Below, piece by piece: positions 4,286-40,061 of a stretch of 40,247 bases of DNA. Both the position numbers and the translations under genes were made by a program. The notes beneath the pieces are model-generated. The model did no database searches and was not told where the DNA came from. It saw only the letters and a program-made list of their open reading frames with translations. How positions within the stretch are numbered: position 1 is the first letter of the stretch; each line of letters opens with the position of its first letter. Location: the NCBI GenBank assembly GCA_022801435.1, contig JAAWSG010000017.1:1-40247 (forward strand), given 5' to 3'. This DNA comes from Lawsonibacter sp. (GTDB taxonomy: Bacteria; Bacillota; Clostridia; Oscillospirales; Oscillospiraceae).

Positions 4286-5935
4286 TCACAGGGCGGTCCT
4301 GGCCTTGGTCAGCTCCTGGGCGATGTTCAGGGCGTGGTCGCCGATGCGCTCGAAATCGGTGAGCAGCTCGGAGTAGAGGATGCACGCCTCGTCCGAGCAG
4401 ACGCCGTCCCGCATACGGACCAGCTGGTCCCGCCGGAAGTCGGAGGTCATATCGTCGATTTTCTGCTCCAGCTGGGCCACCTGCGCCAGCCAGTTGGGGT
4501 CCCCCGCCTCACTGGACAGCAGCGCCGAGACCGCCCGCAGGGTAATATCCAGCATCTGCCGGACCTCCTCCTGGGCGAACTGGGACAGGGTGATGTCCTT
4601 CTCCGCCAGCAGCCTGGTGTATCCGGCCAGGTTGTCCGCATGGTCGCCGATGCGCTCGATGTTCCCCGCGATGGAGAAAAAGCTGCTGACAATGGCGGAG
4701 CCCCGCTCGTTGGTCTCGATGGTGATGAGGTGGGAGATGTAGCGGGAGATCTCCTTGTTCAGATAGTCGATGTACCGTTCCCGGCGCTCCACCCGCTCCA
4801 GATGGGCCACATCCCGCTCCAGCACGGCCTTGAAGCTGGCGTCCACATTCTGCCGGGCCATCTCCAGCATCCGGTGCAGCTCGTTGCGCAGCTGGCCCAC
4901 CACAATGGCGGACACGCCCAGACCGCCGTCCTTGCCGCCGGAGGGGATGGGGGTGAGGTAGGCCAGACGCATTCCGCCGCTCTCCTCCCGGCCCTCCTTG
5001 GAGGTGTCGGGCAGGATGCGGGCAGCCAGTCCGGCCAGCGCGTCGCCGAAGGGGAAGAGGATTATGGTGGTGGCCAGGTTGAAGAAGACGTGCATCACGG
5101 CGATCTGTGCCATGGGCTCATGGACCAGGGCGGCGATGAACTCGGTGAGGGGGAAGACCATCACCACCACGGTGAAGAGGACCGTGCCGATGACATTGAA
5201 CAGCAGGTGGACGCAGGTGGCCCGTTTGGCGTCCCGACTGGTCCCGAAGGAGGCCATGACCGCGGTGATGCAGGTCCCGATGTTCTGTCCGAAGAGGACG
5301 TACACCGCGCCGGAGAACTCCACCACTCCCGCCGCGGCCAGGGTCTGCAAAATACCCACCGAGGCGGCGGAGGACTGGATCAGCGCGGTAAACAGGGCCC
5401 CGAAGGCGATGCCCAGCAGGGGGTTGGAGAGGGTGGCCATCAGGGTGACAAAGGCGGAGACCTCCCGCAGGGGTTCCATAGCCGCGCTCATCATATCCAT
5501 GCCGATGAACAGGATGCCCATGCCGGCCAGCAGCTGTCCGATGTGCTGGGAGTTCGGATGTTTCAGAAATACCATCATCGCCACGCCGGCAAAGGCCACC
5601 AGAGGAGCCAGCGCCCCCACGTCCAGGGCAATGAGCAGACCGGTGGTGGTTTTGCCCACGTTGGCCCCCATAATCAGCCACACCGCCTGGTTCAGGCTCA
5701 GCATCCCCGCGTTGACAAACCCCACCACCATCACCGTGGTGGCGGAGGAGGACTGTACAGCGGTGGTAATCAGCGCGCCCACCAGGATACCCATAAAGCG
5801 GTTGGAGGTCAGACGTTCCAGGACGCTTTTCATCTGGTTGCCCGCCGCCGCCTCCAGGCCGGAGCTCATCATCTGCATCCCGTGCAGAAACAGCGCGAGC
5901 CCGCCCAGAAGACCCAATATGATCGTAAAGCTCAT
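4286..5935 (-). CDS. Na+/phosphate cotransporter (NptA/PNaS type II family) with PhoU-like C-terminal domain
   Basis: This inner-membrane protein would import inorganic phosphate with sodium. Its 549 aa contain a duplicated transport core with the family motif QSSSAT at 61-66 and its second copy QSSAAS at about 187-192, each beside hydrophobic helices. From about residue 340 a soluble helical PhoU-like region follows (two bundles, each with an ERIGDHA segment), as in the bacterial NptA/YjbB type. The start at 5935 has AGAGGGG 7 nt upstream; longer reading frames extend into the leader without a ribosome site. It is a single gene between the FMN-dependent gene and divergent proS. Phosphate as substrate rests on family knowledge. 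Confidence 0.9.
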   Translation of the reverse strand: MSFTIILGLLGGLALFLHGMQMMSSGLEAAAGNQMKSVLERLTSNRFMGILVGALITTAVQSSSATTVMVVGFVNAGMLSLNQAVWLIMGANVGKTTTGLLIALDVGALAPLVAFAGVAMMVFLKHPNSQHIGQLLAGMGILFIGMDMMSAAMEPLREVSAFVTLMATLSNPLLGIAFGALFTALIQSSAASVGILQTLAAAGVVEFSGAVYVLFGQNIGTCITAVMASFGTSRDAKRATCVHLLFNVIGTVLFTVVVMVFPLTEFIAALVHEPMAQIAVMHVFFNLATTIILFPFGDALAGLAARILPDTSKEGREESGGMRLAYLTPIPSGGKDGGLGVSAIVVGQLRNELHRMLEMARQNVDASFKAVLERDVAHLERVERRERYIDYLNKEISRYISHLITIETNERGSAIVSSFFSIAGNIERIGDHADNLAGYTRLLAEKDITLSQFAQEEVRQMLDITLRAVSALLSSEAGDPNWLAQVAQLEQKIDDMTSDFRRDQLVRMRDGVCSDEACILYSELLTDFERIGDHALNIAQELTKARTAL

Positions 5936-6049
5936 CGTTACCCCTCTTCCGTCTTTGTATACCAGTCCTCCCGAAATTTTTCCATTTTCTATTGTAGCGG
6001 AAATCCCTTCCTCCGTCAATGGTGAAGACCTCTTTTTTGCCGCTTTCTC

Positions 6050-6078
6050 TTGACTTTCCCCCGGGGAGTTTATAAAAT
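6050..6078 (+). promoter_or_regulatory. proS promoter
   Basis: TTGACT (6050-6055), 17-bp spacer, TAAAAT (6073-6078). The leader is only about 37 nt, so no T-box riboswitch can be present. Confidence 0.75.
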
Positions 6079-6122
6079 AAGGGGCGTATGATTCCTGTGT
6101 GAATAGAAAGGACTGAGACGCT

Positions 6123-7565
6123 ATGGCCAAGGACAATAAGAAACAGGTGAAAGAGATCACCGATATGGAGGTGGACTTTGCCCAGTGGTACACCGATGTC
6201 TGTACCAAGGCGGAGCTGATTGACTACTCCTCCATCAAGGGGATGTTTATCTACCGCCCTTACGGCTACGCCATCTGGGAAAATATCCAGAAGGAGCTGG
6301 ACCGCCGCTTTCGGGAGACGGGCCATGAAAATGTATACCTGCCCATGCTCATCCCGGAGAGCCTGCTCCAGAAGGAGAAGGACCATGTAGAGGGCTTCGC
6401 TCCCGAGTGCGCCTGGGTGACGGTGGGGGGCAGCGAGAAGCTGGAGGAGCGGTACTGCATCCGCCCCACCTCCGAGACCCTGTTCTGCGAGCATTATAAA
6501 ACTGTCATCCACTCCCACCGGGACCTGCCCAAGCTGTACAACCAGTGGTGCTCCGTCCTGCGGTGGGAGAAGACCTCCCGCCCCTTCCTCCGCCACCGGG
6601 AATTTTTGTGGCAGGAGGGCCACACCATGCACGCCACCCCCGAGGAGGCCCGGGAGGAGACCGAGCGGATGCTGAACATCTACGCGGACTTCATTGAGAA
6701 CGTGCTGGCCATGCCGGTGGTGAAGGGGCGGAAGACCGACAAGGAAAAGTTCAACGGCGCGGAGGAGACCTACACCGTGGAGTGTATGATGCACGACCGG
6801 AAGGCCCTTCAGAGCGGGACCAGCCACTACTTCGGGGACGGCTTCGCCAGGGCCTTCGACATCACCTTTACAGGGAAGGACAACCAGCTCCACCACCCCC
6901 ATCAGACCAGCTGGGGCCTGTCCACCCGGCTGATTGGCGGCATCATTATGACCCACGGCGACAACAGCGGTCTGGTGCTCCCCCCCCGCATCGCCCCCAT
7001 CCAGGCCATGATCATCCCTGTGGCCCAGCACAAGGAGGGGGTGCTGGACGCCGCCGGAGCGCTGCTGGAGCGGCTCCAAAAGGCGGGGGTCCGGGCCAGA
7101 ATGGACGCCTCCGACCAGTCCATGGGCTGGAAGGCCGCCGAGTATGAGATGAAGGGGGTCCCCCTCCGGGTGGAGATCGGGCCCAAGGACATGGAGCAGA
7201 ACCAGTGCTGCATCTGCCGCCGGGATTCTGGGGAGAAGGTCTTGGTTCCCCTGGAGAAGCTGGAGGACACGGTGCGGGAGCTGCTGGACGCGGTCCACCA
7301 GGGGCTGTACGACCGGGCCAGGCGGAACCTGGAGGAGCACACCCGGGTCTGCCTCACCCTGGAGGAGGTCAAGACCTTTATGGAGACCGAGGGCGGCTTT
7401 GCCAAGACCATGTGGTGCGGCGAGCTGGACTGCGAGATGAAGATGAAGGAGCAGGCCGGGGTCACCTCCCGGTGTATGCCCCTGGAGCAGGAGCGCGTGG
7501 CCGATGTGTGCGTGTGCTGCGGCAGGCCGGCGAAGCACTCCATTCTGTGGGGCGTGGCCTACTAA
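6123..7565 (+). CDS. proS: Prolyl-tRNA synthetase, short (archaeal/eukaryote-like, ProS type 3) form
   Basis: This cytoplasmic class II aminoacyl-tRNA synthetase charges tRNA-Pro with proline. At 480 aa it lacks the YbaK-like editing insertion of the long bacterial form. Motif 1 lies near [19 protein letters not shown], motif 2 in [20 protein letters not shown], and motif 3 in [10 protein letters not shown]...[10 protein letters not shown]. The anticodon-binding domain follows from about residue 285. A C-terminal zinc-like domain carries CCIC and CVCC pairs, and the chain ends in WGVAY with the typical terminal Tyr. AAAGGA precedes the ATG by about 11 nt. It is monocistronic, with its own promoter and a strong terminator. 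Confidence 0.97.
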
Positions 7566-7586
7566 TAAAAGCTCCCTCTGAACAGA

Positions 7587-7624
7587 AAAAATCCGCCTCC
7601 GCTCAGACGCGGAGGCGGATTTTT
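7587..7624 (+). terminator. Intrinsic terminator after proS
   Basis: A 12-bp perfect stem (7591-7602 with 7609-7620) and 6-nt loop, flanked by AAAA on the left and TTTT on the right. Confidence 0.9.
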
Positions 7625-7633
7625 GCGCGATTC

Positions 7634-7662
7634 TTGACAAATGTCCCCCAAAGGGATATGAT
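7634..7662 (+). promoter_or_regulatory. Promoter of the DUF554 gene
   Basis: TTGACA (7634-7639), 17-bp spacer, TATGAT (7657-7662). Confidence 0.8.
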
Positions 7663-7701
7663 CGTCATACCAAAAAATGGTTTGTTTGCGGGGTGGTTGT
7701 G

Positions 7702-8427
7702 ATGCCCGGACTGGGCACTGTAATCAATGTGGCCGCCATTCTCCTGGGGGGCTTGGGAGGGCTTCTCTTCGGCAGGCTGATTTCAGAGGGCTGCCAGGAG
7801 ACCCTGACCAGGGTGTGCGGTGTGTGCGTGATTTTCATCGGGATGGGCGGCGCGCTGTCCGGGATGCTGTCCGTGGAGGGGGGCACGCTGTCCAGCGGGC
7901 GCTCTCTGCTGCTGGCGGCCAGCCTGGTTCCCGGGGCGTTTTTGGGGGAGCTGCTGGATCTGGAGACGGGGATTGAGCGCTTTGGCGGCTGGCTCAAAAT
8001 CAAGACGGGGAGCGCCGGAGACCGCCGCTTTGTGGAGGGATTTGTCACCGCCTCCCTCACCGTCTGCATCGGGGCGATGGCTATAATCGGCGCCATCCAG
8101 GACGGTATTTTTGGGGATATCTCCATCCTGGCCGCCAAGGCGGTGCTGGACTGTGTGATCGTCATGATTATGACCTGCTCCCTGGGGAAGGGCTGCATCT
8201 TCTCCGCCCTCCCGGTGGCCGCCTTTCAGGGGACCATCACCGTGCTGGCCCGCCTGATTCGCCCCCTGATGACCGACGCCGCCTTGGGGAACCTGTCCCT
8301 GGTGGGGTCGGTGCTCATCTTCTGCGTGGGAGTGAACCTGGTGTGGGAGAAGCGCGTCCGGGTGGCCAATCTGCTCCCCGCTCTGGTCATTTCCGCCGGG
8401 CTGGCCTTTACCCCTCTGGCCCTGTAG
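7702..8427 (+). CDS. DUF554 family integral membrane protein (YdfK-like)
   Basis: This polytopic membrane protein of the DUF554 family (B. subtilis YdfK type) has no established function. The frame gives 241 aa from ATG 7702, with GTG codons at 7693 and 7699 as alternatives. The typical opening GTVINVAAILLGGLGGLLFG is present, followed by about six more hydrophobic stretches (for example VCVIFIGMGGALSGML, SLLLAASLVPGAFLGELL, FVTASLTVCIGAMAIIGAI). The Asp/Glu-containing segments between helices are typical of the family. GGGGTGG lies about 5 nt before the start. Its end overlaps the convergent ruvX end by 20 bp. Confidence 0.85.
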   Translation: MPGLGTVINVAAILLGGLGGLLFGRLISEGCQETLTRVCGVCVIFIGMGGALSGMLSVEGGTLSSGRSLLLAASLVPGAFLGELLDLETGIERFGGWLKIKTGSAGDRRFVEGFVTASLTVCIGAMAIIGAIQDGIFGDISILAAKAVLDCVIVMIMTCSLGKGCIFSALPVAAFQGTITVLARLIRPLMTDAALGNLSLVGSVLIFCVGVNLVWEKRVRVANLLPALVISAGLAFTPLAL

Positions 8428-30994: not shown

Positions 30995-32734
30995 TTAGCC
31001 AATTACCTCAACGCCGACGGTGCTGCCCCCCATGCTCTTCGGGTCGCCCATGCCCCAGCCGCTGAAGACGGTGGTGTCCGCCTCCAGCCCCTCGGTGATC
31101 TCGCAGCTGTAAGTATCCGAAAGGCCGGTGGTCACCGGGACGGGCCAGAAGCCGTCAGAGGGGGCGGGCATGGCGTCCCCCAGAGCGGCGGCGTCCAGCT
31201 CCACCGCGTTGTCCGGCTTGGCGCTTGCCTGGATGAAGACCACGGTGTGGGTCTCACCGTTCACGTCGGTCACCCGCTTGATGCACTGGTTGGGGACCGA
31301 CACGCAGTCCGCGGACTCGGCGGTGACCAGCTTATAGTTCAGCCAGGAGCCGTTGTAGATGGTCCCCATGGAGTTGTCCACCTCCAGCTTGACCGGGTAG
31401 GTGGTGGTTCCGGTCCCCACCTCCCCCTGCATGGCCACGTTGGTGACGGTACCCATGACGGGGTTGCCGCTGTCATCGGTGAGCTCCATGGTCATCCCCG
31501 CCTGGATGAACCCGATGTTCCGGCTGTCCACCTGGATGTCCACGATCATGGTGGTAGTGTTGGAGATGGTGATGGCGGTCTCCCCCTCCTTCACGGCCTG
31601 GCCGGGGGTCAGAGCGCAGGAGAAGACCTGCCCGTCGATGGGGGCCACGGCGTTGAAGTTCTCCAGCCCCTCCTGCGCTTTTCTCAGGTCCTCCTGGGCC
31701 TCGTTGATCTGATCCTGCTTGGCCCGGATGTCCGAGTCGATGGTGGAGGAGCCCAGGTGCAGCAGGGCCTCCCCCACCTCCACGTTGGCGTAGTTGAGCA
31801 GATTCCCCTGGCCGATGACCGGTCCGGAGGCCTTGGCCAGGATGGAGCGGGTCTCATAGAACTCGGTCTGGCCGTTTTTATAGGGGTAGATGTCGGAGCC
31901 GTCGGCGGCGGTGAGCACGGCGGAGGCGTCCATCTCCGCAGTGAGAGTGCCGGGGTTGTCGAAGACGATGACCGCTTCAAAGTGAGCAGCGCCCTCGGGG
32001 GAGATGAAGCTGACCCGGTTGATCTTCTCCACCGTCCCGTCAAAGGACCGCATCACCGCAGGGACCGAGACCTGGACGGGCTGGCCCACATGGATATCCC
32101 CCTCGTAGGCGTAGCTGAAATAGAGGGAGAGCTTCAGCTTCCGGTCGTTGACCAGGGTGGCCACCGGGTCCCCCTTGTTCACGTCCTGGTCGGGCTCGAA
32201 CTCATGCACGTCCTGGAGCTTCCCCGCGAAGGGGGCGCGGACGGTGAGGTTGGCGGCGTCCTCCTGGAGATCGGCCAGGTCCTTGTTCAGGTCGCTGAGC
32301 TTCTCCTGGGCGTTGGTGAGCTTATCCCGGGCGTCCTGGCTGTCGATGGTGTACAGCGGGTCGCCGGCGTAGACGGTCTGGCCCACGGTGACGTAGACCT
32401 CCTCCACCGTGCCGGCGGCGCTGAGGGTGATGGCGGCGGACTCCTTGGGGACCGCGTTGCCGTAGCCCTGGACCACGCTCTGGATGGTGTTGATCTGGGC
32501 GACATCCGTCAGGGGGAACCGGCCCGCGCTGTCCTGGCGGAAGACAATCCACCACATGCCGAAAATGCAGCCGGCCACGATGGCCAGGATGACCGACAGG
32601 GCGATAACGCGCTTGACCACCTTCTTCCGGCCCTTCCCCTTGGGCCTTGCGGGGGGCCTGGGGGGCGCGGGCGGTGTATTTGCAGCCGCCTCCTGAACGG
32701 GAGCGGCGGGCTGAGTATCTTTAACTTCTGGCAT
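30995..32734 (-). CDS. MacA/HlyD-like efflux adaptor with two lipoyl-hairpin units
   Basis: This membrane-anchored adaptor (579 aa) of a MacAB-type system has a Pro/Ala-rich cytoplasmic N-terminus (1-36), one transmembrane helix (about 43-64) and a large external part. Unlike most MacA proteins (about 370-400 aa), it carries two coiled-coil/lipoyl units: VYVTVGQTVYAGDPLYTID with the helix LTNAQEKLSDLNKDLADLQ, and later ANVEVGEALLHLGSS with KQDQINEAQEDLRKAQEGL followed by APIDGQVFSCALTPGQAV. The ATG at 32734 has GGAGG 9 nt upstream. It leads the operon with the ATPase and permease behind a promoter at 32783-32811. Confidence 0.9.
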   Translation of the reverse strand: MPEVKDTQPAAPVQEAAANTPPAPPRPPARPKGKGRKKVVKRVIALSVILAIVAGCIFGMWWIVFRQDSAGRFPLTDVAQINTIQSVVQGYGNAVPKESAAITLSAAGTVEEVYVTVGQTVYAGDPLYTIDSQDARDKLTNAQEKLSDLNKDLADLQEDAANLTVRAPFAGKLQDVHEFEPDQDVNKGDPVATLVNDRKLKLSLYFSYAYEGDIHVGQPVQVSVPAVMRSFDGTVEKINRVSFISPEGAAHFEAVIVFDNPGTLTAEMDASAVLTAADGSDIYPYKNGQTEFYETRSILAKASGPVIGQGNLLNYANVEVGEALLHLGSSTIDSDIRAKQDQINEAQEDLRKAQEGLENFNAVAPIDGQVFSCALTPGQAVKEGETAITISNTTTMIVDIQVDSRNIGFIQAGMTMELTDDSGNPVMGTVTNVAMQGEVGTGTTTYPVKLEVDNSMGTIYNGSWLNYKLVTAESADCVSVPNQCIKRVTDVNGETHTVVFIQASAKPDNAVELDAAALGDAMPAPSDGFWPVPVTTGLSDTYSCEITEGLEADTTVFSGWGMGDPKSMGGSTVGVEVIG

Positions 32735-32782
32735 AGCGGCTTCCTCCTTCTCTGGATGTGCTTGGTATGGATCACATCCTGC

Positions 32783-32811
32783 ATTATATGCCCTTCTGTC
32801 CGGGGTGACAA
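32783..32811 (-). promoter_or_regulatory. Promoter of the MacA-MacB-SLH operon
   Basis: Minus-strand TTGTCA (32811-32806), 17-bp spacer, TATAAT (32788-32783). Confidence 0.75.
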
Positions 32812-32820
32812 CAACAGGGC

Positions 32821-32868
32821 GGTTACAAAATCTTAAAGTTTTCTTAAAAATGGTATTATATTGTAACC
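32821..32868. promoter_or_regulatory. Nested direct and inverted repeats upstream of the MacA promoter
   Basis: GGTTACAA (32821-32828) and TTGTAACC (32861-32868) are perfect inverted repeats. Between them TCTTAAA occurs at 32831 and 32842, 11 bp apart, the layout bound by many OmpR/PhoB-type response regulators. The element starts just upstream of the -35. No two-component gene is in the window. Confidence 0.55.
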
Positions 32869-32958
32869 AGTGCCCGAAACCGTGTCAAGAGTAATAGACG
32901 AAAAAGCGGGGAAGAGGTTCCCTGTCTTTCCGAAAAATTTTGCTGGAAAAGAAAGACA

Positions 32959-32987
32959 GCCGGGGACCAGAGTGACTGGTCCCCGGC
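32959..32987 (-). terminator. Terminator-like hairpin after the 120-aa gene
   Basis: A perfect 12-bp stem (32959-32970 with 32976-32987), 5-nt loop, followed on the minus strand by the U-rich TGTCTTTCTTTTCC. Confidence 0.7.
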
Positions 32988-32994
32988 GGGGGAG

Positions 32995-33357
32995 TCAGGC
33001 GGCCCGGGCGGCGGGCTGTTCCGGCTCCAGCCCCCTGGCCGTCACCCGGCCGGGAGCGGACCTGCGGAAGTCGGTCTGGCTGACCCGCCCGTCCCGCCAC
33101 CGGTAGCGCAGGCGGGCGCGGCCCCGGGTGAGGCAGCGCTCCAGGGCGGCGCGGCACTGCTGGAGGTAGAGCAGGCGGTCGATGGTCTCGTACTCCGCCT
33201 CCACCTCCTCCCCGTACTCCGGGCAGGGCTGGGCGTCCCAGGAGGTCAGCCGGGAGACCGAGCGGGAGAGAAGCAGGGACTGCTGCTGGGCACGGCTGCG
33301 CAGCTGCTCGCGCAGGACCTGGATGGGGTACTCAGGGCTGTTGTTCTTACGTTTCAT
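32995..33357 (-). CDS. Hypothetical protein, Arg-rich, 120 aa
   Basis: I do not recognise this protein. It is strongly basic with many Arg and Gln residues (REQLRSRAQQQSLLLSRSVSRL), an acidic middle (GEEVEAEYETIDRLLYLQQC) and an Ala/Pro-rich tail, with no membrane segment. The N-terminal two-thirds could form helices. AAGGAGG lies 9 nt before the ATG and a hairpin terminator follows. It stands alone, 195 bp after the RHH regulator gene, with the long palindrome at 33401-33503 in its leader. Confidence 0.6.
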   Translation of the reverse strand: MKRKNNSPEYPIQVLREQLRSRAQQQSLLLSRSVSRLTSWDAQPCPEYGEEVEAEYETIDRLLYLQQCRAALERCLTRGRARLRYRWRDGRVSQTDFRRSAPGRVTARGLEPEQPAARAA

Positions 33358-33375
33358 AGTTGGGGCCTCCTTAAA

Positions 33376-33486
33376 TTAAAATAATTTTGGCGTCCCCTTT
33401 TTCAAAACGAAAAAAGGGCATAGTACGACTGCTGCCATATCCATACCCCCTTCATGAGGGTATAGCACAACCATCGTCGTATCCAT
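33376..33486 (-). CDS. Possible 36-codon ORF inside the tandem repeat (doubtful)
   Basis: An open frame from ATG 33486 to TAA 33376 covers both 42-bp repeat units and gives two similar peptide halves (MDTTMVVLYP and MDMAAVVLCP). Two of the base differences between halves are silent (GTT/GTC, GTG/GTA). An AAAAGGA lies only 1 nt before the ATG, too close for normal initiation. A second open frame (33402-33497) also spans the repeat. It may be a leader peptide or no gene at all. Confidence 0.25.
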   Translation of the reverse strand: MDTTMVVLYPHEGGMDMAAVVLCPFFVLKKGTPKLF

Positions 33487-33503
33487 GTCCTTTTCATTTT
33501 GAA
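33401..33503. repeat. 42-bp tandem repeat nested in a 103-bp imperfect palindrome
   Basis: Units at 33416-33457 and 33458-33499 match at about 27 of 42 positions, sharing GGG, ATAG, TATCCAT and TTCAT. The ends TTCAAAACGAAAA (33401) and TTTTCATTTTGAA (to 33503) are complementary with one mismatch, and an inner ATACCC...GGGTAT pair closes a loop at about 33449-33457. The RNA of either strand could form one long hairpin. Confidence 0.6.
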
Positions 33504-33552
33504 CTGTGCGCCTATTATGCCACAAGATGAGGCAAACTGTCAAGAGGAAATT

Positions 33553-33750
33553 TCAAAATTTTTGATTTCCATTGGGCGCGGTCGGGAGCTGAATGGGTCC
33601 GTGCCTGGATTCGTAGTCGCAAATATATGTGGATAGGGCGTGTTCGATCTGCATATTGACCGAGCGGCGCTCCAGAAATGCCAGATAGCGGACCTTCTCA
33701 TAGAGTTCCTCCGGCAGGCGCAGCATGGTGGGGCGTTTTTCAGTGGCCAT
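33553..33750 (-). CDS. Ribbon-helix-helix (Arc/CopG-type) DNA-binding protein
   Basis: This small 65-aa regulator opens with a basic strand and helix pair typical of RHH repressors: KRPTMLRLPEELYEKVRYLAFLERRSVNMQIEHAL. TMLRLP is the DNA-contacting strand, and the NMQIEHAL helix completes the dimer fold. A polar tail follows from about residue 47. GGGAGATG lies about 9 nt before the ATG. Its promoter (33785-33813) overlaps an operator-like TTTCAGAGTGATTTCA, found in two variant copies around the divergent promoter, so autoregulation and control of the plus-strand promoter are likely. No toxin gene follows in the usual position, so a classical toxin-antitoxin pair is not supported. Confidence 0.8.
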   Translation of the reverse strand: MATEKRPTMLRLPEELYEKVRYLAFLERRSVNMQIEHALSTYICDYESRHGPIQLPTAPNGNQKF

Positions 33751-33784
33751 GTCAAAAACATCTCCCTGATTTCAGAGTGATTTC

Positions 33785-33813
33785 ATTATGCCCTGAACAG
33801 CGTAGGAAATCAA
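33785..33813 (-). promoter_or_regulatory. Promoter of the RHH regulator gene
   Basis: Minus-strand TTGATT (33813-33808), 17-bp spacer, CATAAT (33790-33785). Confidence 0.7.
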
Positions 33814-33822
33814 GATTTCATA

Positions 33823-33851
33823 TTGACATCACTGAAACAACGTGCTATAAT
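33823..33851 (+). promoter_or_regulatory. Consensus plus-strand promoter facing the ter operon (P1)
   Basis: TTGACA (33823-33828), 17-bp spacer, TATAAT (33846-33851): both hexamers match consensus exactly. It is flanked by two operator-like sites. Confidence 0.88.
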
Positions 33852-33857
33852 CCAAAA

Positions 33858-34023
33858 ATATTTCAGTGATATCACCTTCCCGCTCTAATATTGCCCCTGA
33901 CAATCTGGATATGCGCGGCCATGCCAGAAGACAGAAAGGACGCCGCCAGCAGACAGCTGACCCAAAGGTTTATGCTACAAGAAGCAGCCGCACGCTTTGG
34001 ATGGGGGGCGGTTACTTCTTTTT
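33858..34023 (+). ncRNA. Candidate short transcript or leader RNA from P1 (hypothetical)
   Basis: The 420-bp space between the RHH gene and yceG has no convincing gene. A transcript from P1 would start near 33858 and meet a hairpin (33982-33991 with 34008-34017, one mismatch and one wobble) followed by CTTTTT, giving about 165 nt. Within it an open frame at 33921-34034 (37 codons, MPEDRKDAASRQLTQRFM...) lacks a ribosome site. It could be a small RNA, an attenuated leader of the ter operon, or a remnant. Confidence 0.3.
33982..34023 (+). terminator. Possible intrinsic terminator between P1 and P2
   Basis: AAGCAGCCGC (33982-33991) pairs with GCGGTTACTT (34008-34017) with one mismatch and one G-T pair; the loop is 16 nt and a TTTTT run ends at 34023. 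It is of moderate strength. Confidence 0.4.
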
Positions 34024-34093
34024 ACCCTGGATGAATTAGGCTGTAGATACCGGTGATTACAAAGCGCAGCGACAAAACATCTGCCGAAAATGG

Positions 34094-34122
34094 TTGACAA
34101 GGTGGAAAAGGCGTCCTATAAT
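34094..34122 (+). promoter_or_regulatory. Consensus promoter of the ter operon (P2)
   Basis: TTGACA (34094-34099), 17-bp spacer, TATAAT (34117-34122). It overlaps upstream in-frame ATG codons, which rules them out as yceG starts for this transcript. Confidence 0.88.
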
Positions 34123-34171
34123 GGAACAGGAAAAAGAGAGGCCCGGGGGAAGAACACGGGGGACTTTTGTT

Positions 34172-36427
34172 ATGTTTCAACAGGCAGCCTTGGAAAAACT
34201 GGAGGACTATTTCACACCCCTTGCCCAGCGGCCCCGGAGGTGCGTCTACTTTTACCGGCTTGCGGGCCTCACCCCCGGGAGCAGCGCGTTTTTGAGCCGG
34301 TACTATCAGGCGGCCCGGGAGAACGGCGTGATCTTGGACGGGCGGCTGGCCAACCCCGGACCCGACCAGCTGGCCTACTACACCGAGATGATGGGGACCG
34401 AGTTCCGGCTGGACAGGGGATTTTTGGACCAAAGCCTTGCCCGCTGGCTCCCCCGAATGTCCCCCGCCCAGCGGGAGCGGGTCACGGAGGCAATTTTTTC
34501 TACCTTAAATGATATGCGCGGCCAGGGCAAGAACGACAATATGCTCCGCAACGGGTATATGAAGTATATGTGCTGGCTCTACTATAAATTTGAGCGCATC
34601 CTCAACCGGCTGGGGGCGGAGTCCCTTCCGAAGGTCCTGTACGACGGGGCCCTCAGCCAGCATGAGCTCCAGCTGCTGGTCATCCTGTCCCGGGCGGGCG
34701 CGGATATCCTGGCGCTGGAGCGGGAGGAGGGCTATCTCCGGCTGGACCCGAGGTCGGAGTGGTCCCGGCAGTGGCGGGAGGAGAGACAGGAGCCCATCCC
34801 GAACAGCTTCACCCTCAAGGGGATACAGGAGGGGCTGCGGCGGGAGCTGGACCGGCAGCGGCTGTACGGCCCGCCCGCCGCCCTTCAGCGCTGCACCAAC
34901 GCCTGGATGGAGCGGCCCGCCCTGGACCAGCTGCTCATCCCGCCCCGGGACAGGGGGGGAGGGGAGGACCGCTTCTGCAACGCCTTCCTTGCCCAGTACG
35001 GCGCGGAGGACAAGCTGGCCTACTCCGGAGAGCTGTTCGCCCTCTACCGGAAGCTCACCGGTCAGGGCCGCCGGGTCTGCGCGGTCAGCGGCGGCATTCC
35101 GGCCCCCTCCCCGGAGGAGGTCGCGGGAATTCAGCGGGGCCAGTACCAGACCCCCGAGCAGCTGGCCGGCGGACTGACCCGGAACATCCGCTACCCCGGT
35201 CAGGAGGAGCTCCAGCGGTTGATGACCCGGGCCTTTGTGGACCTGATACTGGAGGAAAGGGAGACCGCTATGCCCCGGCTGACCAACGGGGCGGTCTATC
35301 TGCTGTGCTGGCTCCGGCGGTATCAGAAGGAGCTCTTCCCCTCCGGCTGGAAGCCCGGGGAGCTCCCGGTGTTTTTCCTCTTCGGGGGGTGCTCCGGGCA
35401 TGAGGGGAGGTTTTTGCGCCTGCTGGCCGGACTGCCGGTGGACGTGGTGCTGCTGATGCCCGACCTGAGCAGGACCTCCAGCCTGCGGGACCCCTGCCTG
35501 CTGGAGCTGCGGTATGAGGATTCCCTGACCATGGACGCCTTCCCTGCGGAGCAGTCCCAGGTCCGGGTGAGCACCGCGGCCTATGAGGCGGAGCGGGAGC
35601 TGGACAGCCTGCTCTATCAGGACTCGGGGCTGTACCGGAACCGGCAGTACGCCCAGGCGGAGAGCGTCACCCTGCGGGTCATGTATGAGGAGATCGCCCT
35701 GCTCTGGGACCAGGAGCTGAAATACCGGCCCAGCTTCCAGGCGGAAAACGGGGCGGTGACCCTCCCCGTCCTGCTGGAGAAGATCTGCGGGGTGAAGGAC
35801 GGACAGATCAACCCCTACTGGCAGGACATCAAAAAGCTCATGACCCCCGATACCCTGGTGGTGACCCAGGTCCCGTGGCTCACCGGCCGGGAGGAGAACC
35901 CCATCAAGCCCCATGTGACCCGCTTCCTGCAAAACCGCCGGCTGCTGAAAAACCGCATCAAGGAGCACAAGGACTACCCCTACCGCATCCTGAGAGAGGA
36001 TATGCAGGACTACCTGCTGGACAAGCTCCAGCTGCTGCTGGACCGGCAGAGCGTGGCGGGCATTTATCAAAACGGGACCGAGTACACCGCCATCGCCGTG
36101 GCCCTGAACCTGAGCAAGGAGCTGCTGCGGCTCATCCAGCGGTTCGACTTCACCAAGAAAAACCCCAAATTGATCCTCATCAACACCACCGAGCGGGTGC
36201 TCTCCCTGGAGGACAGCATTCTGACCGCGTTTTTGAATCTGGTGGGCTTTGACATTTTGTTCTTTGTCCCCACTGGCTACCGCTGCATCGAGGGGTATTT
36301 TACCAAACCCTTCGCCAACGAGCAGCAGCTGGGGGAGTACCTGTACGACCTGGTTCCCCCCAATTTCAGCGCCCTCCCCGCCAGAGGAAAAAACCCCATT
36401 CGGAAATTATTTGGAAGGAGCGATTGA
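34172..36427 (+). CDS. yceG: YceG family protein of the Ter stress system
   Basis: This cytoplasmic protein of 751 aa belongs to the YceG_bac family, found with TerD and TelA in B. subtilis yceCDEFGH and in many Ter loci; its activity is unknown and a biosynthetic or nucleotide-linked role has been proposed. Typical segments are visible: YRLAGLTPGSSAFLSRYYQ near the N-terminus, NDNMLRNGYMKYMCWLYYKFERIL, VFFLFGGCSGHEGRFLRLL in the middle (a Rossmann-like strand and loop), and LNLVGFDILFFVPTGYRCIEGYF at the end. ATG 34172 is preferred: P2 overlaps the earlier ATGs, and GGGGGA lies 8 nt before it. The stop is 2 bp before telA, so the two are coupled. Confidence 0.88.
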   Translation: MFQQAALEKLEDYFTPLAQRPRRCVYFYRLAGLTPGSSAFLSRYYQAARENGVILDGRLANPGPDQLAYYTEMMGTEFRLDRGFLDQSLARWLPRMSPAQRERVTEAIFSTLNDMRGQGKNDNMLRNGYMKYMCWLYYKFERILNRLGAESLPKVLYDGALSQHELQLLVILSRAGADILALEREEGYLRLDPRSEWSRQWREERQEPIPNSFTLKGIQEGLRRELDRQRLYGPPAALQRCTNAWMERPALDQLLIPPRDRGGGEDRFCNAFLAQYGAEDKLAYSGELFALYRKLTGQGRRVCAVSGGIPAPSPEEVAGIQRGQYQTPEQLAGGLTRNIRYPGQEELQRLMTRAFVDLILEERETAMPRLTNGAVYLLCWLRRYQKELFPSGWKPGELPVFFLFGGCSGHEGRFLRLLAGLPVDVVLLMPDLSRTSSLRDPCLLELRYEDSLTMDAFPAEQSQVRVSTAAYEAERELDSLLYQDSGLYRNRQYAQAESVTLRVMYEEIALLWDQELKYRPSFQAENGAVTLPVLLEKICGVKDGQINPYWQDIKKLMTPDTLVVTQVPWLTGREENPIKPHVTRFLQNRRLLKNRIKEHKDYPYRILREDMQDYLLDKLQLLLDRQSVAGIYQNGTEYTAIAVALNLSKELLRLIQRFDFTKKNPKLILINTTERVLSLEDSILTAFLNLVGFDILFFVPTGYRCIEGYFTKPFANEQQLGEYLYDLVPPNFSALPARGKNPIRKLFGRSD

Positions 36428-36429
36428 GT

Positions 36430-37569
36430 ATGGGATTGGATTTTGGAAAACCCTCCCAGACCCCGGAGCTGGAGATAGTCTCCGTCCAGGGGCAGGAGGA
36501 GTACCCTCAGTACGACATCACGGCGGACCGCCAGCAGATGAGCCAGACCTTGGTCAACTCCCCCGAGGTGGACGCCCTGGCCAGCCAGATCGAGGTGTAC
36601 AACCTGGAGACCATCGTCTCCTTCGGCAGCGGGGCGGCGGAGGAGATCTCCAAATGCTCCGACGTGATTCTCAACAGCATGAATATGTCCCAGCTGGACG
36701 ACTCCAGCGCCATGCTCACCACCCTGGCCAAAATTATGGACAAGTTCGACATCGAGGAGATACGGGACGACCCCGGCCTGTTTGGCAGGCTGTTCGGCAA
36801 TCTGCGCCGGCAGCTGGACAAGATTTTGGCCAAGTACCACACCATGGGGGAGGAGGTGGACAAGATCTATGTCCAGCTCAAGCAGTACGAGTCCGAGATC
36901 AAGCAGTCCAACCGCAAGCTGGAGGATATGTTTCAGGCCAATGTGGCATACTACCATGAGCTGGTAAAATATATCCTGGCCGGGGAGCAGGGCTGCCGGG
37001 AGCTGGAGGAGTATATCGCCCAGCGCCGGGCGGACATGGAGGCCACCGGGGACGGGTCCATCCAGTTTGAGCTCACCTCCCTGGAGCAGGCCCTGATGAT
37101 GCTGGAGCAGCGCACCCAGGACCTGCGTACCGCCGAGAGCGTGGCCATGCAGTCCATCCCCATGATTAAGACCATGCAGTTCAGCAACATGAACCTGGTG
37201 CGGAAGATTAACTCCGCCTTTATCATCACCCTGCCCGTCTTCAAGCAGGCCCTGACCCAGGCCATCATGCTCAAGCGCCAGCGCATCCAGGCCGAGGCCA
37301 TGTCCGCCCTGGACGCCAAGACCAACGAGATGCTCATCCGCAACGCCCAGAATACCGCCGAGCAGTCCAAGATGACCGCCCGCCTGGCCTCGGGCAGCTC
37401 CATCAAGATCGAGACGCTGGAAAAAACCTGGCAGACCATCGTCTCCGGCATTGACGAGACCCGCCAGATCCAGGACAACGCCCGGAAGCAGCGGCTGGAC
37501 GACCAGAAGCGGCTGGAGGCCATTCGGGCGGACTTCAACAGCCGGTATCATATGCCGGAGCGGCAGTAG
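36430..37569 (+). CDS. TelA-family toxic anion resistance protein (YceH-like)
   Basis: This soluble helical protein (379 aa) of the TelA family was first linked to tellurite resistance and is now known as a general stress component. The long alpha-helical core matches the family: SGAAEEISKCSDVILNSMNM, DPGLFGRLFGNLRRQLDKILAKY, ELEEYIAQRRADME, MQSIPMIKTMQFSNMNLVRKINSAFIITLPVFKQAL. The ATG at 36430 has AAGGAG 9 nt upstream, whereas TTG 36424 is only 3 nt away. It sits directly behind yceG, the same order as in B. subtilis. A hairpin at 37569-37594 separates it from terD. Confidence 0.93.
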   Translation: MGLDFGKPSQTPELEIVSVQGQEEYPQYDITADRQQMSQTLVNSPEVDALASQIEVYNLETIVSFGSGAAEEISKCSDVILNSMNMSQLDDSSAMLTTLAKIMDKFDIEEIRDDPGLFGRLFGNLRRQLDKILAKYHTMGEEVDKIYVQLKQYESEIKQSNRKLEDMFQANVAYYHELVKYILAGEQGCRELEEYIAQRRADMEATGDGSIQFELTSLEQALMMLEQRTQDLRTAESVAMQSIPMIKTMQFSNMNLVRKINSAFIITLPVFKQALTQAIMLKRQRIQAEAMSALDAKTNEMLIRNAQNTAEQSKMTARLASGSSIKIETLEKTWQTIVSGIDETRQIQDNARKQRLDDQKRLEAIRADFNSRYHMPERQ

Positions 37570-37624: not shown

Positions 37625-38206
37625 ATGGCGATCAATCTGACAAAGGGACAAAAGGTCGATCTGACCAAAGGGAACCCTTCCCTCTCCAAAATCGTAGTGG
37701 GATTGGGCTGGGATGTCAACGCCTTTGATTCCGGAGCGGCCTTCGACCTGGACGCCGCCGCGTTCATGGTGGGTGGCAGCGGAAAGTGCCCCACCGAGAA
37801 GGAGTTTATTTTCTACGGGAACCTGGAGCACCCCAGCGGAGCCCTCAAGCACATGGGGGACAACCTCACCGGCGAGGGGGACGGGGACGACGAGCAGATC
37901 GTGGTGGAGCTGTCCAAGGTTCCCGCCAGCGTGGAGCGTATCGCCTTCACCGTGACCATTTACGATGCGGAAACCCGGCGGCAGAATTTTGGGCAGGTCT
38001 CCAACGCCTATATCCATATCCAGGATATGGTGGGGGGCGCGGACCTTATCCGCTATGATCTGGGGGAGGATTTCTCCATCGAGACCGCCATCGTGGTGGG
38101 GGAGCTCTACCGCCACAACGGCGAGTGGAAGTTCAACGCCATCGGCAGCGGCTTCCAGGGCGGCCTGGCGGCGCTGTGCGGGCACTACGGAATCGACGTG
38201 GCGTAA
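37625..38206 (+). CDS. terD: TerD family calcium-binding stress protein (copy 1)
   Basis: This cytoplasmic TerD-domain protein (193 aa) has the fold known to bind two calcium ions. The Ca2+ sites are intact: FDLDAAAFM near 39-47, and [15 protein letters not shown] near 78-92. It shares the family opening [18 protein letters not shown] and the C-terminal [16 protein letters not shown] lies about 8 nt before the ATG. It is first of four tandem TerD-domain genes and closest to the second, differing mainly at surface positions, so a recent tandem duplication is likely. Confidence 0.95.
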
Positions 38207-38250
38207 GAGACGCCGGACGCACCCTTGGAACAAATGAAGGAGGAACTGCA

Positions 38251-38832
38251 ATGCCTGTCAATCTGAAAAAGGGACAGAAGGTCAGCCTGACCAAAGACAA
38301 CCCCGGCCTGCAGCACGTGGTGGTGGGCCTGGGCTGGGACGTGAACAACTATGACACCGGCGGGGACTTCGACCTGGACGCCGCCGCCTTTCTCCTGGGG
38401 GACAGCGGAAAGGTGAAGGACTCCGGGGACTTCGTCTTCTATGGCAACCTGAAGCACAGCTCGGGCGGCGCGGAGCACCTGGGGGACAACCTCACCGGCG
38501 CGGGAGAGGGGGACGACGAGCAGATCAGGATCGACCTGTCCAAGCTCCCCGAGGCGGTGGTCCGGGTGGCCTTTACCGCCACCATCTACGACGCGGAGAC
38601 CCGGCGGCAGAACTTTGGCATGGTCAGCAACGCGTTTATCCGCATCTACAATGAGGACACCGGCGAGGAGCTGCTGCGCTACGACCTGGGGGAGGACTTC
38701 TCCATTGAGACCGCGGTGGTCTTCGGCGAGCTGTATAAAAATAACGGCGAGTGGAAGTTCAACGCCATCGGCAGCGGCTATCAGGGCGGTCTGGCGGCGC
38801 TGTGCGGGAACTACGGCGTGGATGTCGAATAA
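38251..38832 (+). CDS. terD: TerD family calcium-binding stress protein (copy 2)
   Basis: A 193-aa TerD-domain protein with both calcium segments complete: [10 protein letters not shown] and [15 protein letters not shown]. It is nearly colinear with copy 1, sharing [23 protein letters not shown] and [11 protein letters not shown], so the two are close paralogues. AAGGAGG lies 7 nt before the ATG at 38251; a longer frame to 38125 overlaps copy 1 and has no ribosome site. It is 44 bp after copy 1. Confidence 0.95.
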
Positions 38833-38846
38833 GGAGGAAGTACACA

Positions 38847-39449
38847 ATGGCTATCAGTCTGGAAAAAGGGAAAAAGGTAAGTCTGAAAAAGGGGAGCGCC
38901 CCCGGCCTGGGGGAGATCCTCATCAATCTGAACTGGAACACCAAGCCTGCCAAGAAGGGGCTGTTCGGTATGTTCAGCGGCAGCCAGGGGATCGACCTGG
39001 ACCTGGGCTGCCTGTTCGAGCTGAAGGACGGCCGCAAGGGTGTGGTGCAGGCCCTGGGCAATGCCTTCGGGTCCCTCCGGGAGCCCCCCTTCATCGCCCT
39101 GGACGGGGACGACCGCACCGGCGCGGTGACGACCGGCGAGAATCTGCGCATTGACGGCAACCAGATCGCCCAGTTCAAGCGCATCCTGGTCTACACCTTC
39201 ATCTATGAGGGGGTGGCCAACTGGCAGCAGGCGGACGCGGTGGTGACCATCAAGTACCCCGGCGCCGAGGACCTGGTGGTGAAGATGGACTCCTACAACT
39301 CCAAGGACATCATGTGCGGGCTGGTGCTGCTGGAGAATGTCAACGACGAGACCTTCAGCGTGGAGAAGATTGTCCAGTTCTACCCCGGCCACCAGGCGCT
39401 GGACGCCGCCTTTGGATGGGGAATGCGCTGGCAGGCCGGCCGGAAGTAG
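38847..39449 (+). CDS. TerA-like TerD-domain protein
   Basis: This divergent TerD-fold protein (200 aa) keeps the N-terminal ISLEKGKKVSLKKG but replaces the standard calcium loop with ALDGDDRTGAVTTGENLRI, and has the TerA-type LINLNWN near residue 26, QFKRILVYTFIYEG, and a C-terminal FAWGM-like AFGWGMRW. This matches TerA rather than TerD or TerE. Calcium binding may be altered. AAGGAGG lies 9 nt before the ATG. It sits 14 bp after terD copy 2 and is co-transcribed with it. Confidence 0.85.
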   Translation: MAISLEKGKKVSLKKGSAPGLGEILINLNWNTKPAKKGLFGMFSGSQGIDLDLGCLFELKDGRKGVVQALGNAFGSLREPPFIALDGDDRTGAVTTGENLRIDGNQIAQFKRILVYTFIYEGVANWQQADAVVTIKYPGAEDLVVKMDSYNSKDIMCGLVLLENVNDETFSVEKIVQFYPGHQALDAAFGWGMRWQAGRK

Positions 39450-39461
39450 GAGGAACGACAT

Positions 39462-40061
39462 ATGTCAGTGAGCTTACAGAAGGGCCAGAAGGTCAGCTTA
39501 ACCAAGGACAACGCTGGCCTGAGCAGCGTGATGGTGGGCCTGGGCTGGGACGAGGCCCCTAAGAAGGGGGGACTCCTGGGCGGTCTGCTGGGGGGTCAGC
39601 AGGCGGAGATCGACTGCGACGCCTCCGCCCTGATGCTCCGCAGCGGAAAGCTGGTGGACAAGGGGGACGTGGTCTTCTTCGGGAACCTGACCCACAGCTC
39701 CCGGACGGTGCGCCACATGGGGGACAACCTCACCGGCGCGGGGGACGGGGATGACGAGCAGATCATGATCGACCTGGCCCAGGTCCCGGCGGAGTACGAC
39801 CGTATCGTCCTGGTGGTGAACATCTACCAGGCGGTACAGCGCAAACAGCACTTCGGCATGATTCGCAACGCCTTTATCCGTATCGTGGACTCCCGGAGCG
39901 GCCAGGAGCTGTGCAGGTACAACCTGACCGAGAGCTATGACGGCATGACCGCGGTGATTTTTGGCGAGGTCTACCGCTACAACGGCGAGTGGAAGTTCAA
40001 CGCCATCGGACAGGGGACCACCGACCCCGGCCTGGGCGAGCTTGTGTCCCGGTATATTTAG
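39462..40061 (+). CDS. TerD family protein, divergent (copy 3)
   Basis: A 199-aa TerD-domain protein, more divergent than the first two. The first calcium segment reads EIDCDASALML instead of FDLDAAAF, and a Gly/Leu-rich loop (KKGGLLGGLLGGQQ) is inserted before it; the second segment [15 protein letters not shown] is intact. The C-terminal [11 protein letters not shown] is kept. TAGGAGG precedes the ATG at 39462 by about 7 nt. It is the last TerD-domain gene before the P-type ATPase. Confidence 0.92.
   Translation: MSVSLQKGQKVSLTKDNAGLSSVMVGLGWDEAPKKGGLLGGLLGGQQAEIDCDASALMLRSGKLVDKGDVVFFGNLTHSSRTVRHMGDNLTGAGDGDDEQIMIDLAQVPAEYDRIVLVVNIYQAVQRKQHFGMIRNAFIRIVDSRSGQELCRYNLTESYDGMTAVIFGEVYRYNGEWKFNAIGQGTTDPGLGELVSRYI

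Follow-up and report, generated by a model that had tools for sequence, protein, structure and literature searches.

A perfect consensus promoter pointing at a Ter stress operon, and a small ribbon-helix-helix (RHH) repressor gene diverging from it, raise the question of whether the repressor controls the operon or merely lies beside it. We addressed this question in a stretch of 40,247 nt (hereafter the window), a complete contig from the 2.45-Mb, 81%-complete genome of a Lawsonibacter species, by comparison with draft genomes of its relatives. An earlier note on this DNA had proposed that the RHH protein regulates its own gene and gates expression into the operon. Pfam profiles place yceG, telA and four terD genes in this order on the plus strand: the yceG-domain gene opens the operon (34172..36427; PF14266, E = 1.7e-90) and is followed by telA (36424..37569; PF05816, E = 6.4e-104) and the terD-family genes (37625..40061, at 37625, 38242, 38844 and 39462; PF02342), the third of which is a divergent member of its family (E = 5e-9). 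Around the RHH gene, over about 33300-34200, GC content is 0.44-0.51, compared to 0.6-0.7 in the surrounding genes; this dip tells little about origin, because another intergenic stretch (32700-33000) shows a similar one.

The gene in question (33553..33750, minus strand) encodes 65 aa and is classed as an Arc-like RHH repressor on its open reading frame and on weak Pfam, PHROG and structural matches. Pfam returned ParD_like (E = 1e-3) and Arc (E = 1.3e-3), both below their curated cut-offs (19.0 bits against 20.4 for Arc, PF03869), and PHROGs returned Arc-like repressors (E = 6.6e-5 for PHROG 582, and 2.3e-4). No NCBIfam family matched the protein, and the eight proteins queried against NCBIfam yielded no family. 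The AlphaFold monomer (mean pLDDT 83.5, pTM 0.60) shows the two helices of an RHH core, the ribbon of which forms only in the dimer. Its top structural matches in the PDB were RHH proteins, with the CopA(SO) antitoxin, Arc and AmrZ among the best (E = 0.18 to 0.5) and none below E = 0.001; a profile built from nine relatives gave similarly weak PDB matches by sequence (ORF E73, E = 0.023; permuted Arc, 0.027; AmrZ, 0.044). Judging from this model, the 65-aa protein is predicted to adopt the RHH fold and to extend little beyond its core.

Several of these structural matches, the first one included, were antitoxins, which together with the weak ParD_like match would suit an antitoxin role in a type II toxin-antitoxin system. 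We regard this as very improbable. A protein that is barely more than an RHH core argues against it, and the next minus-strand gene (33357-32995) matched no toxin family in Pfam, PHROG or NCBIfam and has a promoter-like site and a leader of its own. Furthermore, relatives of that gene were found without an RHH gene in the stretch examined at three of four other loci, and at the fourth the two were 2.4 kb apart.

The product of this minus-strand neighbour, 120 aa long and unmatched in Pfam, PHROG and NCBIfam alike, has 60-71% relatives in G035, G047, G020 and L067, and by eye the loci have promoter-like sequence and leaders in which a hairpin is followed by a T-run. The leader in the window (33505-33395, minus strand) has a folding z-score of -8.0, compared to -4.8 for the leader of L067 and -3.9 for that of L074; values of -2.3 and -0.2 for L072 and L073 come from stretches that end before the end of the hairpin. 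With no Rfam match to the window leader, it looks like an undescribed transcription attenuator. A 36-aa open reading frame inside it (33486-33379, minus strand) has a weak relative in G035 and may be just the hairpin read as protein. Over 32000-36000 as a whole, Rfam gave no credible match, the one hit being mir-650 at 22.4 bits against a gathering threshold of 100.

How, then, is the intergenic DNA next to the RHH gene organized? Promoter-like sites are frequent in this region, nine being found in 32500-35500 where 0.8 are expected. The open reading frame and the promoter scan bear out the divergence of the RHH gene from a perfect promoter, P1 (TTGACA-17-TATAAT, 12/12 match; 33823..33851, plus strand), and the scan equally confirms the second perfect promoter that had been noticed ahead of yceG-telA-terD, P2 (TTGACA-17-TATAAT, 12/12, 17-nt spacer; 34094..34122, plus strand). 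The RHH gene itself is preceded by a 9/12 match (TTGATT-17-CATAAT; 33785..33813, minus strand). Three copies of one motif had been reported here, of which two stand as exact copies of TTTCAGTGATRTCA. One of these, O1 (TTTCAGTGATGTCA; 33824..33837, minus strand), overlaps the -35 box of P1, and the other, O2 (TTTCAGTGATATCA; 33861..33874, plus strand), lies just past the expected start of the P1 transcript, such that the pair forms an inverted repeat around the P1 -10 box (14 nt, one mismatch, 23-nt gap). The supposed third copy, at the RHH transcription start, is not the same motif, being missed by the O1/O2 pattern at ≤3 mismatches over 33769-33785; a related but distinct site conserved in relatives, O3, does lie there (TGAAATCACTCTGAAAT; 33769..33785, minus strand), covering the end of the RHH -10 box and the expected transcription start.

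An inverted repeat of the O1/O2 type occurs once in the 814 nt of 33358-34171 and in none of 200 dinucleotide shuffles. O1 and O2 are the sole exact copies of the motif in the genome, where 11 further matches, all with two mismatches, compare with three for a reversed-pattern control. At ≤3 mismatches the motif is not in clear excess within the window, with five matches against a shuffle mean of 2.12 and 8 of 100 shuffles reaching five. The exact inverted pair was found in the window's own genome alone among 394 genomes of the order, and the same was true of the O3 pattern (≤2 mismatches) among 64 genomes of the genus.

We compared the upstream DNA of RHH relatives. RHH matches at E ≤0.001 were present in 53 of 99 genomes (the window's included); among the matches listed, all were ≤44% identical except the window's own and one at 66% (L002), and the single plasmid match reached 38%. 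Besides the window there were six distinct loci with relatives 66-84% identical, namely L002, L065, L066, L067 (same protein as L058), L068 (same as L059) and L069 (same as L070). O1 and the divergent promoter are kept in three of these six (L065, L066 and L069), O1 with at most one mismatch and the promoter as an 11/12 counterpart of P1, so that the four loci with O1, window counted, have 11 or 12 of 12 promoter positions. O3 is kept, exactly or with one mismatch, in the same three and in L068, which has this site alone; O2 is exact in L065 and L069/L070 only, and O1 and O2 are spaced by 36 or 37 nt wherever both occur, which is at three loci. All three sites are missing from L067 and L002, which were left out of the footprint alignment, where the CATAAT -10 box of the RHH promoter is kept in 5/5 loci and where O1, the divergent promoter, the RHH -10 box and O3 are nearly identical across the window, L065, L066 and L069. 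A different inverted repeat (AAAGTGTACTTTTTCGAAA type, by eye) lies upstream of the RHH gene in L002 and is perhaps an operator of its own. An O3 match in one further viral contig, L082, falls by eye inside an apparent phage polymerase-type coding sequence and was taken as chance.

The coding sequences of these loci have diverged considerably: between the window and L065, L066 and L069, dN is 0.10-0.15 and dS returned no value (-1, taken as saturated), so that recent shared ancestry alone is unlikely to explain the conservation of the non-coding DNA. The putative operators thus appear between divergent promoters and conserved together with the RHH gene. That the RHH protein regulates its own gene through shared operators, as had been proposed, is supported by this footprint in three to four of the six distinct relatives, and autoregulation is likely to be its function.

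The relatives occur in both phage and chromosomal settings. The best match to the full switch was in a temperate-phage contig (L069, part of a 42.6-kb viral contig), where it lies in the phage switch region, with an XRE regulator and an integrase on one side and an early operon of Erf-SSB-DnaC type on the other. This operon comprises an Erf annealing protein and a DnaC-type loader (both by PHROG) and an SSB-like open reading frame (by eye), and a second small RHH-like gene, which matches an Arc-like repressor PHROG at E = 1.8e-6, lies on the same side of the switch; the divergent gene begins less than 20 nt from O2. Only two viral contigs contained the full switch, L069 and L070, and their switch sequences are identical, so they perhaps represent one phage. 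In L069 the same 145-aa open reading frame occurs twice (5821-6258 and 7318-7755), flanking a 346-aa gene, and the repeat includes part of the second RHH gene, which may reflect a duplication or an assembly artefact.

Two further relatives have chromosomal neighbours. In L065 the flanking genes encode an M20 peptidase and a protein with a copper-amine-oxidase domain, and the divergent side holds a 77-aa open reading frame of no credible family; in L066 they are recR and a glycosyltransferase gene, and the conserved P1 counterpart is aimed into the end of recR, which implies that P1 can persist without a downstream gene of its own. In the window, no phage genes were recognised beside the switch among the nine proteins scanned with Pfam or, for the RHH gene and its 120-aa neighbour, with PHROGs.

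We also asked directly whether RHH and ter go together. Matches to yceG were present in 12 of 99 relatives and in 12 of 340 genomes of the family at E ≤1e-100; with two genomes (the window's and G041) common to both sets, this left 21 other genomes. None of the 21 had an RHH gene at yceG by a six-frame profile search, with flanks mostly of 1.5 kb, some of them shortened by contig ends; a sub-threshold match in L032 (E = 0.55) was treated as none, and L044, a spurious yceG match, was left out. Conversely, yceG was found at none of eight RHH loci tested, six of them distinct, in stretches of 2.4-16 kb. A recurrent role of the RHH protein as regulator of ter was rejected as a general rule on these counts. 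The check proposed in the earlier note, motif conservation where RHH adjoins ter, had no second case to draw on, because among the genomes examined the two adjoin only in the window's own; the motifs are kept at RHH loci with no yceG in the stretches examined.

The operon, moreover, seems to have a promoter to itself. A match of at least 10/12 lay within 100 nt upstream of yceG in 12 of 20 other loci, all of them without RHH, compared to a mean of 0.3 and a maximum of 2 over 200 rounds of shuffling. These 100-nt stretches end at the start of the yceG match and so include, in a few loci, some residues inside the gene; the counts leave out L042, L043 and L044. The eight loci without such a promoter are five more distant homologues (L040, L041, L091, L092 and L093; 34-37% or 51% identity) and three with a stop inside yceG (L088-L090), L089 being counted here even with its contig cut and the position unaligned to the yceG start. 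In the closer relatives a P2-like promoter thus belongs to the operon itself and is independent of RHH. The three interrupted genes, all from genus g85, carry a single in-frame TGA each, consistent with a shared inactivation, sequence error or recoding.

These results bear on the reading in which the Ter operon has the RHH protein as its dedicated regulator and P1 as a genuine promoter, with O1 and O2 as the gate. P1 is perfect and points at yceG from a distance of ~320 nt, with one weak terminator-like site on the plus strand in between (33993-34010, 3 G-C pairs); the operators are intact; and three genomes hold both an RHH relative and yceG apart from each other, on different contigs in G168 (79% identity) and on the same contig 15 kb apart in G053 (40%) and 32 kb apart in G082 (35%). 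Even so, we consider dedicated control unlikely, in view of the missing adjacency, the recurrence of these operators at RHH loci with no yceG in the stretches examined, the closer position of P2 with its counterparts elsewhere and the persistence of the P1 counterpart that faces recR. The gating of the operon that had been proposed thus finds no support in the comparison, P2 counterparts occurring without RHH, and a search of open-licence PMC papers found no report of RHH control of Ter.

Alternatively, the switch might be a relic in decay that no longer functions in the window's genome. Of the genomes searched, one alone places it beside ter, and a tblastn search did not find the divergent phage gene in the window. 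In L068 and L059, the RHH gene has its start codon in a different frame from the remainder, with promoter and O3 retained, so decay does occur in relatives. Against this, the window retains an intact reading frame, both promoters and all three sites, and comparison of the orphan copies in L065 and L066 gives dN = 0.11 against dS = 1.40, which makes the relic reading a rather poor prospect.

The explanation that we favour, and hold to be probable from these comparisons, is that an Arc-like switch of phage type, orphaned and autoregulated, lies upstream of a ter operon with its own promoter P2; the comparison with relatives suggests that the RHH-ter neighbourhood is accidental. The RHH gene, O1, O2, O3 and P1 would then form one compact temperate-phage-type switch. 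RHH dimers on O3 are predicted to cover the RHH start site and turn the RHH gene off, and dimers on O1 (at the P1 -35 box) and O2 (past the P1 start) to turn P1 off. In the phage relative, the P1 counterpart faces the early recombination and replication operon; in the window's genome, the switch lies upstream of the ter operon and its P2. With no strong terminator between P1 and yceG, transcription from P1 may read through into yceG, and any effect of the switch on ter would be at most that of an extra, normally repressed promoter.

If such read-through takes place, a phage-type promoter would have been recruited ahead of a Ter module. One could further envisage the RHH protein as a domesticated phage repressor serving the operon as an infection sensor: an incoming phage with the same operators would titrate or displace RHH, P1 would fire, and transcription would read through into yceG-telA-terD. 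Ter clusters elsewhere have been linked to phage inhibition, according to PMC8123226, but we give the sensor very little credence. More generally, a stress operon need not own the textbook-like operators next to it, as these can come with a travelling phage-type switch, and the small Arc-like family gains here an operator signature spanning viral contigs and chromosomal orphans.

Among known systems, one close parallel to the favoured orphan switch is the Arc repressor of phage P22, a small RHH protein that acts at partly symmetric operators between divergent phage promoters. With Arc and Arc-like phage repressors (PF03869, PHROG 582 and 228) the window protein shares the RHH fold and the small size, and the switch shares partly symmetric operators between divergent promoters; it differs in scoring below the Pfam cut-off and in having no recognised phage genes alongside. 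Brevibacillus phage Jimmer1 encodes a 44.6% relative within an Arc-like repressor cluster (gp63-gp65), from which an early operon holding Gam, ERF and SSB genes runs divergently, a layout similar to that of L069; Jimmer1 has two Arc-like genes in tandem and one opposite, and the likeness is drawn from gene layout. On the other side of the intergenic DNA, the natural comparison is with the yce operon of Bacillus subtilis, which contains terD-type genes; the window operon shares the yceG domain and the TerD families with yceCDEFGH and its relatives. For another genus, OxyR control of ter is named in the reference list of PMC9933665. The B. subtilis operon is listed in PMC3498285 as controlled by sigma-W, sigma-B and sigma-M, whereas the window operon is preceded by a sigma-70-type consensus promoter.
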